Source: Bacteroidales bacterium (GTDB lineage: Bacteria; Bacteroidota; Bacteroidia; Bacteroidales; P3). From it: a DNA stretch of 64,000 nt. The notes below the pieces were generated by a model, which was given only the letters and a program-made list of their open reading frames with translations, did not search any database and was not told where the DNA came from. The translations under genes and the position numbers were made by a program. Where the stretch lies: contig JAFRTM010000028.1 of the NCBI GenBank assembly GCA_017439185.1, forward strand, positions 51,812 to 115,811, in the 5' to 3' direction. Within the stretch, counting starts at the first letter, position 1; each line of letters starts with the position of its first letter. Positions 14,877-61,932 of this stretch are shown here, piece after piece.

Positions 14877-14950
14877 AGCTGTGAGTCATAAGTTTTAAGT
14901 GGGCTGACGCGGCTACTTAAAACTCAAAACCTAAAACTCAAAACTCAGAA
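14877..14950. repeat. Palindromic 7-bp array element, copy 1 (sdhA-sdhB spacer)
   Basis: Two arrays of 7-mers face each other around a 14-bp centre (14901-14914, GGGCTGACGCGGCT). The left arm ends AGTTTTAAGT and the right arm begins ACTTAAAACT, an exact 10-bp inverted repeat; the right arm continues as ACTCAAA-type 7-mers. The same element in opposite orientation lies at 21031-21121. It would fold as a hairpin in the sdhA-sdhB transcript, where it could modulate stability or the A:B ratio (inference). Confidence 0.8.
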
Positions 14951-21030: not shown

Positions 21031-21121
21031 ACTTTAAGTTTTAAGTTTTAAGTTTTGAGTTTTAAGTAGCAACGCAGGCCACGCCAGCCTACTTAAAACT
21101 TTCAACTCACAGCTTACAGCT
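21031..21121. repeat. Palindromic 7-bp array element, copy 2 (etfB-etfA spacer)
   Basis: The left arm is AGTTTTA-type 7-mers ending AGTTTTAAGTAG; the right arm begins CTACTTAAAACT, an exact 12-bp inverted repeat around a G/C-rich centre. Read on the minus strand it matches copy 1 at 14877-14950 in both arms and in the centre (GCTGGCGTGGC against GCTGACGCGGC). It fills the spacer between the two subunit genes. Confidence 0.8.
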
Positions 21122-21928: not shown

Positions 21929-22000
21929 ATTAGTGAATTGTGAATAGTGATTTGACAAATGTAATGTCTATTCACTCATCACTTGTCACGATTCACTAAT
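21929..22000. repeat. Imperfect palindrome of ATTAGTGAAT units (bcd-etfB spacer)
   Basis: The first arm begins ATTAGTGAAT at 21929 and the second arm ends ATTCACTAAT at 22000; the intervening GTGA/AGTGAT and ATCACT/GTCAC blocks also pair. Same layout as the AGTTTTA elements but a different core sequence. A weaker relative (GATTAAGTG with CACTAATC) lies at 23183-23219 in the ridA-bcd spacer. Confidence 0.7.
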
Positions 22001-29348: not shown

Positions 29349-29364
29349 ATTTGCGAAGCAAAAA

Positions 29365-29402
29365 ACTCAAAACTCAAGACTCAAGACTCAAGACTCAAAA
29401 CT
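29365..29402. repeat. Array of ACTCAAG/ACTCAAA 7-mers
   Basis: Five consecutive 7-bp units between the hemW stop and the stop codon of the convergent SPOR gene. Similar in style to the right arm of the element at 14877-14950, but here without an opposing arm. Confidence 0.7.
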
Positions 29403-53950: not shown

Positions 53951-55906
53951 ATGAGCGAAGAAATCAAAAACCAGGCAGCCTACAGTGCAAGTAACATTAC
54001 CGTTTTGGAAGGCCTTGAAGCCGTCCGCGTACGTCCCGCCATGTACATCGGCGACGTGAACTTCCGCGGCATGCACCACCTCGTTTACGAAGTGGTGGAC
54101 AACTCCATCGACGAAGCACTCGCCGGCTACTGCACCAAAATCGACGTGACCATTACCACCGACAACAGCATAATCGTGGAAGACAACGGACGCGGTATCC
54201 CTGTCGATATGCACGAAAAAGAGCACCGCTCGGCCCTCGAGGTCGTCATGACCGTCCTCCACGCCGGCGGAAAGTTCGACAAAGGCTCCTACAAGGTCTC
54301 CGGCGGTCTCCACGGCGTCGGCGTCAGCTGCGTCAACGCACTCTCCGACCACATGACTGCCCAGGTCTTCCGCAACGGAAAAATCTACCAGCAGGAATAC
54401 TCCAAAGGCAAGCCGCTCTACGCCGTCAAGGAAATCGGCACCACCGACAAGCGCGGCACTCGCATCGAGTTTCACCCCGACCCCGAAATCTTCACCGTCT
54501 CGGAATACGACTATCCCACACTCGCCAACCGTCTCCGCGAGCTTGCCTTCCTCAATAAAGGCATCGAGTTGAATATCAAGGACCTCCGTCCGCTTGACGA
54601 TGGCACCTTCCAGTCCGACCGCTTCTATTCCGAGCAGGGCCTCCGCGATTTCCTCGCCTACCTCGACGCCAACCGTCAGAGCATCATGCCGGAACCTATC
54701 TACATCGAAGGCGAGAAACAGGGGATTCCCATCGAGATCGCCCTTCAGTACAACAACTCCTTCTCGGAGAACCTCCACTCCTACGTCAACAACATCAACA
54801 CCCATGAAGGCGGCACCCACCTCGCCGGCTTCCGCAGCGGCCTCACCCGTACCCTCAAGAACTACGCCGACACCAACAACCTCCTCCAGAGCAAGAAGAA
54901 AAAGAACGAGAAGATCGATGTTGCTCCCGATGACTTCCGTGAAGGCCTCACCGCCGTCATATCGGTAAAAGTTGCCGAACCCCAGTTCGAAGGCCAGACC
55001 AAGACCAAACTCGGTAATACCGAGGTGCGTGGTGCTGTGGACAAGGCCGTCAGCGAGATGATGGAAGCCTATCTCGAGGAACACCCCAACGAGGCTAAGA
55101 CCATCGTCGCCAAGGTGGTGCTCGCCGCCGAAGCCCGTATTGCAGCTCGCGACGCCCGCGACAAGGTCCAGCGATCCACTGTCTTCTCATCACAAGGCCT
55201 CCCTGGAAAACTGGCCGACTGCCAGGACAACGACCCGTCGGTTTGCGAGATATACTTCGTCGAGGGTGACTCGGCAGGCGGATCGGCCAAAACCGGACGT
55301 AACCGCAAGTTCCAGGCCATTCTCCCCCTGAAAGGTAAAATCCTCAACGTCGAGAAAGCCAGCGTTGACCGTGCTTTCGACAGCGAAGCCATACGCGACA
55401 TCTACACAGCCCTCGGAGTCCACAAAGGCACTGCCGAAGACCCCAAGGCCCTGAATATCGAAAAGCTCCGCTACCACAAGATCATAATCATGACCGATGC
55501 CGATGTCGATGGCGCTCACATCGACACCCTCATGCTCACCTTCTTCTACCGCTACATGCCCGAACTTATCGAGAACGGCTACGTCTATCTCGCCACTCCT
55601 CCTCTCTACCTCGTCAAGAAAGGCAACCGCTCCATCTACTGCTGGAGCGAGGACGACCGCGAGCGTGCTCTCCTCGAGTTCGGCGACAAGGGCATCCACG
55701 TGCAGCGTTACAAAGGTCTCGGTGAGATGAACGCCGAGCAGCTCTGGGAGACCACCATGAATCCCGAGAACCGCCAGCTCCGTCAGGTGACCATCGAGAA
55801 CGCCGCCGCCGCCGACTACATCATCTCCATGCTCATGGGCGACGACGTGCCCCCACGCCGCGAGTTCATCGAAAAGAACGCCACCTATGCCAACATCGAC
55901 GCGTAA
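53951..55906 (+). CDS. gyrB: DNA gyrase subunit B
   Basis: 651 residues. GHKL ATPase: RVRPAMYIGD, EVVDNSIDEALAG, DNGRGIPVDMH, GLHGVGVSCVNALS. Toprim: EGDSAGGSA and DADVDGAHI. C-terminal RYKGLGEMNAEQLWETTM. GyrB rather than ParE by length and the KTGRNRKFQAILPLKGKI segment. With GyrA it introduces negative supercoils. The array of GTTGATAT units begins directly after the stop codon. Confidence 0.97.
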   Translation: MSEEIKNQAAYSASNITVLEGLEAVRVRPAMYIGDVNFRGMHHLVYEVVDNSIDEALAGYCTKIDVTITTDNSIIVEDNGRGIPVDMHEKEHRSALEVVMTVLHAGGKFDKGSYKVSGGLHGVGVSCVNALSDHMTAQVFRNGKIYQQEYSKGKPLYAVKEIGTTDKRGTRIEFHPDPEIFTVSEYDYPTLANRLRELAFLNKGIELNIKDLRPLDDGTFQSDRFYSEQGLRDFLAYLDANRQSIMPEPIYIEGEKQGIPIEIALQYNNSFSENLHSYVNNINTHEGGTHLAGFRSGLTRTLKNYADTNNLLQSKKKKNEKIDVAPDDFREGLTAVISVKVAEPQFEGQTKTKLGNTEVRGAVDKAVSEMMEAYLEEHPNEAKTIVAKVVLAAEARIAARDARDKVQRSTVFSSQGLPGKLADCQDNDPSVCEIYFVEGDSAGGSAKTGRNRKFQAILPLKGKILNVEKASVDRAFDSEAIRDIYTALGVHKGTAEDPKALNIEKLRYHKIIIMTDADVDGAHIDTLMLTFFYRYMPELIENGYVYLATPPLYLVKKGNRSIYCWSEDDRERALLEFGDKGIHVQRYKGLGEMNAEQLWETTMNPENRQLRQVTIENAAAADYIISMLMGDDVPPRREFIEKNATYANIDA

Positions 55907-55912
55907 TGTGTT

Positions 55913-56030
55913 GTTGATATGTGGATAGGTTGATATGTGGATAGGTTGATATGTTGGGTGTTGATAGGTTGATAAGTTGGGTGTTGATATGTGGATATGT
56001 TGGGCGTTGATAGGTTGATACTATGATATG
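55913..56030 (+). repeat. Left array of the four-helix-bundle element
   Basis: About fourteen 7-8 bp units of the GTTGATAT type (variants GTGGATAG, GTTGGGT, GTTGATAG, GTTGATAA) run head-to-tail from just after the gyrB stop to ~34 bp before the four-helix-bundle gene. The opposing array (56447-56541) carries the complementary unit, so the two can pair across the gene. Confidence 0.85.
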
Positions 56031-56063
56031 ATAGAATATAACTGACCAATACGAATCGTAAAT

Positions 56064-56441
56064 ATGGCTTTTTTCGAAGAACTGGAGGTATGGAAAGACG
56101 CAAAACTATTGACGGTATCAATTTACAAGATGATGAGAGAAAACCGTGACTACGGATTTCGGGACCAAATACAACGAGCATCGGTGTCAATAATGAACAA
56201 CATCGCAGAGGGTAGTGAATCGGGCTCCGATTTGACAAACGTCAGGTTCCTTCATATAGCAAAGGGTAGTTGTGCCGAAGTACGGAGTATGTTATACTTG
56301 GCATTAGAGTTGGGTTATTGCACGTCGGAACAGCAAATAGAGCTATTAAGTTTAACCAGAAAGATAAGTGCATACATAAACAAACTTATAGCTTATGTAA
56401 GATCCCGACAAGACATAATTAATCCCGACAAAACAACATAA
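56064..56441 (+). CDS. Four-helix-bundle protein (23S rRNA intervening-sequence / S23 family)
   Basis: 125 residues, the usual length. Family pattern: FFEELEVWKDAKLLTVSIYKM, QIQRASVSIMNNIAEGS, then FLHIAKGSCAEVRSMLYLALELG and a last helix ending in KLIAYVRS. Homologues are encoded inside 23S rRNA intervening sequences of several bacteria and are related to Avd of diversity-generating retroelements; they are basic, homo-oligomeric, and of unclear function. Here no rRNA flanks the gene; instead inverted repeat arrays do. Codon use is more A/T-rich than gyrB and pepE, suggesting transfer. Confidence 0.9.
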   Translation: MAFFEELEVWKDAKLLTVSIYKMMRENRDYGFRDQIQRASVSIMNNIAEGSESGSDLTNVRFLHIAKGSCAEVRSMLYLALELGYCTSEQQIELLSLTRKISAYINKLIAYVRSRQDIINPDKTT

Positions 56442-56446
56442 CACAA

Positions 56447-56541
56447 GTCAACAAAAAACACATCAACAAAAAGGCATATCAACATAAAACGTATCAACAA
56501 AAAAAACATATCAACGTTAAACATATCAACATATCAACATT
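56447..56541 (-). repeat. Right array of the four-helix-bundle element
   Basis: About eight copies of CATATCAAC-type units (reverse complement of GTTGATATG) separated by A-rich 6-8 bp linkers, ending 3 bp before the pepE ATG. Opposite in orientation to the array at 55913-56030. Confidence 0.85.
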
Positions 56542-56544
56542 AAA

Positions 56545-57294
56545 ATGGATAAGAGAAATTTATTGCTCATCAGCAACAGCACAATGCGCGGCGAGGCTTA
56601 CCTCGGTTGGTGCAAAGACATGATCGCAGACTTCTGCCGCCGTCATAATGTCAAACGGGTACTCTTCATCCCTTACGCCGGCGTCTCCCTCGCCGAAGGC
56701 GGACTCACCAAGTCCTACGACGCCTACGAGCGCAAAGTGGCTGCGGTATATAAAGAATTCGGAGTGAAACTCACCTCCGTGCACCACAAGGCTCTCCCCG
56801 TCAACGCGGTCTATGACACCGACTGCGTGGCTGTTGGCGGTGGCAATACTTTCCATCTGGTCAAGGAACTCCACCGTACCGGACTGATGCAGGCTATCCG
56901 CCAGCGTGCTTTCGACGGCATGCCCTATATGGGCTGGAGTGCCGGCAGCAACGTGGCTGGCCCCACCCTCTGCACCACCAACGACATGCCCATCGTCATG
57001 CCTCCTTCGTTCGATTGCATGGGAATTGTCCCGTTCCAGATCAATCCCCACTACACCGACTTCTTCGATCCCAAACACGGCGGCGAGACCCGTGACGACC
57101 GTCTGAAGGAATACATCATGGTCAACCCCAAGGCTACGGTCGCCGCCATACGCGAGGCTACGGCACTCCTCCTCGAGGACGGCAACCTCTCGCTCATCGG
57201 CAAGCCCAACAAGATGAAGGTCTTCAAGACCAAGATGGAGAACACCAAGGAGTTCGGCCTTCAGGACAATATCAACTTCCTCCTAAAAGCATAA
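56545..57294 (+). CDS. pepE: Dipeptidase E (peptidase E, aspartyl dipeptidase)
   Basis: 249 residues. Class I glutamine amidotransferase-like fold; LLLISNSTMRGEAYL start, FIPYAGVSL, VGGGNTFHLVKELHRTG, the nucleophile Ser in MGWSAGSNVAGPT, and INPHYTDFFDP. Hydrolyses Asp-X dipeptides in the cytosol. Its ATG lies 3 bp after the right-hand repeat array, so transcription must cross or start within that array. Confidence 0.92.
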   Translation: MDKRNLLLISNSTMRGEAYLGWCKDMIADFCRRHNVKRVLFIPYAGVSLAEGGLTKSYDAYERKVAAVYKEFGVKLTSVHHKALPVNAVYDTDCVAVGGGNTFHLVKELHRTGLMQAIRQRAFDGMPYMGWSAGSNVAGPTLCTTNDMPIVMPPSFDCMGIVPFQINPHYTDFFDPKHGGETRDDRLKEYIMVNPKATVAAIREATALLLEDGNLSLIGKPNKMKVFKTKMENTKEFGLQDNINFLLKA

Positions 57295-61723: not shown

Positions 61724-61901
61724 AGATAATGTTATAATATAATAACAATAAATAAACGTCTGTGGTCTGTTTTTATTGCATGGCGGGGACAATTTTTTTT
61801 AAATAGGGGGAGTTCGACTGTTGGGAACGGCTGCCTTTTCAGTGGGGGCATTTTGCCTGAGGCATGTATATGGCAACTCTGTGGCACGGCTGTGGTGATA
61901 A

Positions 61902-61932
61902 GTGGTCAGTGGTCGGTGGTCAGTGGTCAGTG
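61902..61932 (+). repeat. Array of GTGGTCA 7-mers
   Basis: Four consecutive 7-bp units (GTGGTCA, one GTGGTCG) in the spacer upstream of the lipoprotein gene, just before the 185-bp repeat copy 1. Same size class as the other heptamer arrays. The remaining 61724-61970 shows no promoter or gene. Confidence 0.7.

Follow-up and report, generated by a model that had tools for sequence, protein, structure and literature searches.

The gyrB–pepE spacer of the window

In the window, the 64,000-nucleotide stretch of Bacteroidales DNA that was analysed, the spacer between gyrB and pepE is occupied by one gene and two arrays of short repeats in opposite orientation:

55907..56544, + strand: whole element, the entire gyrB–pepE spacer (gyrB ends at 55906, pepE starts at 56545)
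55912..56020, + strand: left arm, 14 tandem GTTGATAT-like 8-mers with GTTGATA, GTGGATA and GTTGGG variants, 5 nt past the gyrB stop
56064..56441, + strand: IVP gene, 125 aa, four-helix bundle (PF05635/TIGR02436), co-stranded with gyrB and pepE
56442..56540, - strand: right arm, 7 reverse-complement units of the left-arm word (ATATCAAC type) with A-rich spacers, ending 4 nt short of the pepE start

A preliminary description of this DNA had placed an IVP-type gene between inverted complementary arrays that together fill the spacer, and this layout was confirmed. The protein encoded at 56064–56441 matched PF05635 (E value 6.6e-32) and TIGR02436, and its solved relatives in the PDB are 2gsc (XCC0516) and 2rld. 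Alignment of the left flank of the gene (locus L001) to the reverse complement of the right flank scored 51, compared to 22 for the best of 50 shuffles and 15 in direct orientation; the inverted arms provide the element with terminal inverted repeats. Fourteen unit starts lie between 55913 and 56014, and TRF reports 14.0 copies of TGTTGATA at 55912–56020. The earlier estimate of about 14 left-hand units was therefore borne out, whereas the right array, previously put at about eight, contains seven complementary units within 56448–56540.

As also noted beforehand, the gene is more A/T-rich (GC 0.40) than gyrB (0.575) and pepE (0.56), and the arrays have GC contents of 0.37 and 0.27. No recognised transposase is located between the arms, where the IVP gene (PF05635) is the sole gene, and positions 55700–56700 gave no Rfam match. 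When treated as RNA, the stretch yields a folding z of -5.1 (20 shuffles), with much of the left array pairing with the right array around the gene, and the long stem with the ORF in its loop that had been envisaged is possible.

Inverted arms around other IVP genes

The arrangement is general beyond the window, and IVP genes with inverted arms form a class of element. PF05635 was found above the family cut-off in 126 of 148 related genomes, including the window's own, and in 0 of 14 control genomes, and IVP genes are found in many phyla. The preliminary description had proposed inspecting four-helix-bundle genes elsewhere for flanking inverted arrays. At each locus, 220 nt on the left were locally aligned to the reverse-complemented 220 nt on the right, alongside 50 shuffles. 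In the related-genome set, 77 of 95 loci scored at least 30 and 81 of 95 beat the best of 50 shuffles, although these loci include orthologues and are therefore not independent, and were drawn mainly from the best-ranked family matches. The 95 represent 98 hits after removal of L034, a duplicate of L001, and of two loci with a right flank below 100 nt. Their median inverted score was 45; direct orientation gave 18, and flanks taken from two different loci gave 17. A locus's own right flank ranked first of 95 in 37 cases and among the top three in 67.

Among the 77 is L003 (G000:C13:36721-36933), a weak IVP match in the window's own genome with chiefly direct arrays (72 vs 33). Its open frame is longer and is flanked by 9-bp TATAGAATT arrays; similar weak PF05635 hits of 200–270 aa exist.

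A second set, drawn from titled genome records of Bacteroidota, Deltaproteobacteria, Verrucomicrobia, Acidobacteria, Chloroflexi, candidate phyla and others, gave scores of at least 30 at 52 of 80 loci, these being the best 80 of a longer list and leaning to the window's subfamily. Sixty of the 80 beat their shuffles and 8 of 80 reached 30 in direct orientation; four loci with a shortened ORF (L178, L184, L207 and L220) are included. Further IVP genes of 14 followed-up genomes scored at least 30 at 33 of 42 loci and beat shuffles at 37 of 42 (L352, which is without a left flank, was excluded). Control ORFs distant from IVP genes, a set that leaves out 86 ORFs close to one, reached 30 in inverted orientation in 0 of 127 cases, beat shuffles in 2 of 127 and had direct repeats scoring at least 30 in 4 of 127. 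Inverted flanks above shuffles were also present at 4 of 12 IVP loci on viral contigs and at 5 of the 8 plasmid loci examined, out of 19 records.

Whether other family members lack the arrays had been raised at the outset, and the result differs between two classes: arrays are present around most tested loci of the ~120-aa class and absent around an IVP paralogue of ~150 aa (L002, L355-L370), in which 0 of 16 loci scored at least 30 and 1 of 16 beat its shuffles. The four-helix fold alone was rejected as the cause of the arrays on the basis of this paralogue. It occurs without arrays in each of the 14 followed-up genomes, and is possibly a resident, non-mobile relative.

The repeat units mostly measure 7 to 12 bp, and their words vary by locus, as in TAGTGGG/CTACCCA, TTAGCGG/CGCTAAC and AGGGAGTGAA/CCTCTCACTC. 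In the left arms of the related set, G exceeds C at 72 loci and falls below it at 4; AGT was found as a triplet in 63 of 77 left arms, versus 6 for its complement. Within the many-phyla set, G prevails over C in 40 left arms versus 9.

Word changes in the two arms of a locus tend to go hand in hand, in most groups tested. In four orthologous groups, the left arm on average matched its own right arm better than the right arms of its relatives (48 versus 28, 50 versus 25, 36 versus 16, and 48 versus 34), and in a fifth group, which has one common word, the values were 58.5 and 54.5. In 16 of 28 rows (5/10, 3/4, 4/4, 4/4 and 0/6), the own right arm scored highest. At gyrB–pepE itself, the window, G011, G079, G034 and G021 have a GTTGATAT-like word, and G069 has a GGTTTTAA-like one in both arms. 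The arms also covary with the protein. Across 76 loci with arms (L002, L003 and L034 excluded), arm similarity at different loci correlated with protein identity with a Spearman coefficient of 0.26 over 2741 non-independent pairs, rising from 0.17 at 30–50% protein identity to 0.51 at 80% or more; at the same locus, the corresponding similarities were 0.13–0.20 and 0.66. The arms thus track protein lineage more than place.

Occupied sites, empty sites and copies without the gene

Of 87 genomes, 77 have pepE; 50 of these pepE loci were examined and 43 gyrB–pepE junctions resolved. Six of the 43 hold an IVP element (the window, G011, G069, G079, G034 and G021), the copy in G034 carrying an in-frame stop. 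Gene-less inverted arms of other words occupy two (G002 and G062), and one retains a right-array remnant alone (G018). These counts, together with the same layout around most relatives, uphold the initial view of a discrete element outside rRNA. In 20 of the 43, the spacer measures 16–40 nt, and exactly 16 nt in L044, L062, L126 and L140; in L041, L051, L059 and L130, it comprises ~400–680 nt of other sequence without an IVP gene. Several short spacers hold one-sided AATTGAAA arrays, which may be single arms, since the same word flanks IVP genes of other genomes (L350, L354). The comparison of related junctions that had been suggested shows presence and absence clearly. Empty sites were observed, and at gyrB–pepE and two other junctions neither a consistent target-site duplication nor a recurrent border could be defined. 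A TAAAAC repeat borders one mini-element (L134), and the other mini-elements are without such a repeat.

Similar copies are found at unrelated loci. Among IVP pairs at least 80% identical, with L002, L003 and L034 left out, both flanks are common to the pair in 35 and neither in 17; the 17 amount to about eight separate cases, one of which is a tandem neighbour within one contig. Both long residence and arrival at new sites occur, the latter through within-lineage movement or between-genome transfer.

Copies without the gene were identified with strict patterns of inverted arms and a 15–45 nt loop in the 87 genomes. Four patterns returned 29 such mini-elements in 15 genomes, and the reversed patterns returned 0. 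Three arm variants have 12, 7 and 9 sites, in 6, 3 and 5 genomes respectively, with 1 site for the fourth pattern; the three variants never co-occur in a genome (14 genomes), which genome relatedness may explain in part. The inner ends GACAATA and CATTTGTC were found in 23 of the 27 mini-elements read, and also in several full elements. Arm strings were compared with 68 IVP loci from the 14 genomes that carry these mini-elements, a subset of their IVPs, and an identical string was found at an IVP flank in 7 of the 14. None was present among the flanks examined in G019, G023, G025, G053 and G081, which represent a partial IVP set; an IVP carrying the AGTTAAGACAA string was found in G062 and G066, whose mini-elements are of the AGTTAAAGACAA type. 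One intergenic site is occupied in G055 and G002 by different arms, each like an IVP arm of its own genome; 27 other loci were resolved for this site, of which 17 have 20–27 nt and the rest contain no such pair.

Arrays also occur on one side only. The window's word, as GTTGATANGTTGATA, gave 1627 overlapping matches in the 87 genomes versus 2 for the reversed pattern, and 61 versus 0 in G000, the window's own genome. Five genomes with a same-word IVP at gyrB–pepE contain 61, 140, 41, 218 and 226 matches (median 140), compared to a median of 1 in the other 82 (p 1.3e-4, which ignores phylogeny). G067 contains 93 matches and has a cognate IVP at another locus (L318); G049 contains 182, and the one examined of its 5 IVPs has another word (L088); G040 contains 82, with just 2 weak IVP hits (best E 4.8e-12). 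Of 20 sampled regions with the window's word, 2 have paired arrays and 18 have an array on one side only; none of the 5 regions from G000 is paired. The distributions of gene and arrays, whose possible independence had been considered in the preliminary description, are independent in part, as one-sided arrays are also found where no same-word IVP was seen.

Within the window, two further intervals resemble gene-less copies:

21929..22000, + strand: tentative gene-less mini-element of another unit family, with inverted GTGAAT-type arms, a 26 nt loop and inner end GACAAATG
21033..21107, + strand: possible second gene-less mini-element, a TTTTAAGT array whose inverted counterpart is weaker (score 24)

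The GACAAATG inner end of the former is also found in mini-elements of other genomes. Hairpins of this kind number 2 in the window and 0, 0 and 1 in three block-shuffled windows, so that the hairpin alone is within chance. TRF also reports one-sided short-period arrays, among them those at 14915–14947, 29362–29402 and 61901–61932 (ACTCAAA, AAAACTC and AGTGGTC), which may represent isolated arms whose IVP elements were not detected in G000.

A proposed model for dispersal, and its alternatives

A simple model would describe these loci as a dispersing element class, a REPIN/RAYT-like system in which the IVP protein, and not a transposase, recognises its own repeat; we regard this reading with belief and doubt in roughly equal measure. 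Each IVP lineage would have a characteristic short word, mostly of 7–12 bp, arrayed in two inverted arms around the gene, and the protein would recognise this word in DNA. The same word would be kept in both arms because one protein recognises both, with the consequences that word and protein would drift together and that elements of one genome could be orthogonal. The relocating unit would be the inverted arm pair, with or without the gene (full element and mini-element, respectively), and one-sided arrays would be remnants or by-products. Gene-bearing copies would persist mostly where they are read in sense from an upstream gene, which would generate an orientation bias, whereas mini-elements would be free of that need. 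The architecture and its generality, the coupling of the arms in most groups, their covariation with the protein, presence and absence, similar copies at unrelated loci, and gene-less and one-sided copies are observed; we infer the recognition by IVP, the use of DNA and not RNA as the substrate, and the driving of dispersal by IVP alone or with a host enzyme. Several observations weigh against the model: 7 of the 14 mini-element genomes showed no IVP with the identical arm string, G040 and G049 have many window-word matches but no cognate IVP among those examined, most sampled copies of this word are one-sided, no consistent target-site duplication was detected, and 12 of the 14 mini-element genomes have a Y1 transposase hit. 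Binding of its own repeats is a plausible candidate role for the IVP protein, in which we know of no catalytic residues. A relative, XCC0516, assembles as a pentamer of four-helix bundles, and S23/IVP proteins are described in the same source as being of unknown function (PMC4990558).

The nearest model by anatomy is REPIN/RAYT (TnpA-REP; Bertels and Rainey 2011, PMC3116915), with which the IVP elements have in common a repeat-flanked gene, gene-less inverted doublets, singlets and intergenic dispersal, and in which, according to that paper, REP repeat and RAYT protein are thought to co-evolve. In contrast to RAYT, IVP is a four-helix bundle and not a Y1 tyrosine transposase; in contrast to REPINs, the ends are arrays of a short word and not one palindrome, and a genome may contain several IVPs with different words. 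Inverted doublets, a defining trait of REPIN/RAYT, were found at 29 sites for other words, and in 2 of 20 sampled regions for the window's word. The mini-elements also resemble MITEs, which lack the gene of a full element but preserve its inner ends, in that they retain full-element inner ends; they differ in that the full element is without a transposase and has no established target-site duplication.

Alternatively, the system could be non-mobile, with IVP as a resident DNA-binding protein and the arrays as operators, insulators or chromosome-organising sites that spread by slippage and recombination. This is the best of the alternatives, although we consider it improbable. Purifying selection on the protein is suggested by median dN/dS values of 0.05–0.13 over 12 usable pairs (many others were saturated, and one recent pair gave 0.45), and a resident regulator would be consistent with these few pairs, with the 35 of 52 closely similar pairs that keep the same flanks, and with arrays that have no detected cognate gene, as in G040 and five mini-element genomes. 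The 17 pairs at unrelated flanks and the presence and absence of the element at gyrB–pepE argue against it, as do the gene-less inverted-arm copies with common inner ends at many sites, which look like dispersal of a unit.

A second alternative, which ranks next and is likewise unlikely, is an element that acts at the RNA level like the 23S rRNA intervening sequence: the arms would pair in a read-through transcript, RNase III would trim the hairpin, and IVP would bind or protect the double-stranded RNA. IVP genes are known within rRNA insertions (PMC4990558, PMC11270868), and the intervening sequences described in PMC4990558 likewise have a PF05635 gene between complementary, pairing ends. The folding of the window stretch (z -5.1) and a strong sense orientation of gene-bearing elements are consistent with such a role. 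Among 95 loci of the related set, 63 lie in sense, 5 antisense, 15 convergent and 5 divergent to their neighbours, with 7 lacking close neighbours; among 76 loci of a second set, the corresponding numbers are 50, 3, 8, 6 and 9. The oriented mini-elements, in contrast, are without sense bias (7 sense, 6 antisense and 7 convergent). Mismatches between the arms, counted at loci scoring at least 30 (77 of 95 and 52 of 80), comprise 80 G-U and 93 A-C in the related set, 48 and 72 in the many-phyla set, and 9 and 18 in mini-elements, compared to 10 and 0 in ten tRNA acceptor stems, a small control in which the best register was chosen for each tRNA and which flatters the stems. Because G-U is not tolerated more than A-C, an RNA stem is not supported as the selected form of the arms, nor is the proposal that the arms act as an RNA stem in the manner of 23S intervening sequences. 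Many arrays, moreover, are unpaired, and the window interval searched against Rfam had no match. The window element further differs from 23S rRNA intervening sequences in lying outside rRNA and in having arms that are arrays of a locus-specific short word, and the class differs in showing no sign of an RNA pairing constraint and in its dispersed gene-less and one-sided copies.

DNA-level recognition would fit these mismatches better than an RNA stem. We read the sense bias as read-through expression of a predicted promoterless gene, with dispersal at the DNA level; it is important to note that the bias alone would equally suit an RNA-level role.

In a third alternative, less probable again, the arms would be acted on by an enzyme encoded elsewhere in the genome (Y1/RAYT, IS or reverse transcriptase), and IVP would be cargo or a regulator. 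Y1 transposase hits (E <= 0.001) were obtained for 56 of the 87 genomes from the genus, including 12 of the 14 with mini-elements, and IVP belongs to a family homologous to Avd, the accessory protein of the reverse-transcriptase system of diversity-generating retroelements (PMC10053308). Searches with the Y1_Tnp profile, Y1 being the one enzyme type searched, gave no hit in G000 (92% complete), G019 (81%) and G066 (93%), and a Y1 transposase is therefore not supported as an obligatory partner; the covariation of the arms with the IVP protein also argues against a passenger role. Finally, chance arrays in repeat-rich intergenic DNA, to which the many short-period arrays of the window and the one-sided arrays in IVP-less gyrB–pepE spacers might point, are very improbable and for the class as a whole ruled out, given that 0 of 127 control ORFs reached the threshold, that direct orientation matches background and that the pattern recurs across phyla.

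More generally, and more doubtfully than the dispersing-element model itself, non-rRNA IVPs might be the sequence-specific recognition and mobilising factors of a bacteria-wide class of DNA elements, selfish or domesticated, that have no classical transposase, with 23S intervening sequences and Avd as offshoots and many orphan intergenic tandem repeats as footprints. Searches of the open-licence literature of PubMed Central returned no account of IVP genes flanked by inverted arrays, and the data point to a previously undescribed kind of mobile or dispersing DNA element. Most such IVP genes carry their own candidate binding word, and orthologous sites with different words exist. If the model is correct, it would represent a non-transposase route of DNA dispersal, and would suggest a possible origin of rRNA intervening sequences and of the Avd protein.

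The class could also account for many intergenic short tandem repeats. Cyanobacterial STRR heptamers form short tandem arrays in intergenic DNA. TAACTGA heptamer repeats, reported from Beggiatoaceae, some Cyanobacteria and Bacteroidetes, likewise form short intergenic tandem arrays; as described in that report, such repeats are almost all direct, and unlike the IVP arms are not paired around an IVP gene (PMC4679880).

The reported association of IVP with cas genes could be recast as well. 23S_rRNA_IVP has been described as linked to cas loci (PMC3936711, PMC10910872). In three cyanobacterial plasmids, IVP genes located in sense within cas operons, flanked either by cas6 and cas4 or by cas10 and a Cmr3-type gene, have inverted flanks above shuffles (L384, L385 and L390, with scores of 50, 57 and 29), the direct repeat of L384 being stronger than the inverted one. 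Array-bounded elements inserted in cas operons may explain part of the link between IVP and CRISPR.

Other repeats were observed at some loci. In L017 and L026, a different repeat, extending from a ACCTCTAAAAAT start to an AGAGGT end, sits between the left array and the IVP gene. In L225, L226, L229-L232, L234 and L235, a GC-rich palindrome of the ATCGCGCTTCGCGCTAG type breaks AAGTTAAAG-type arms at similar positions.
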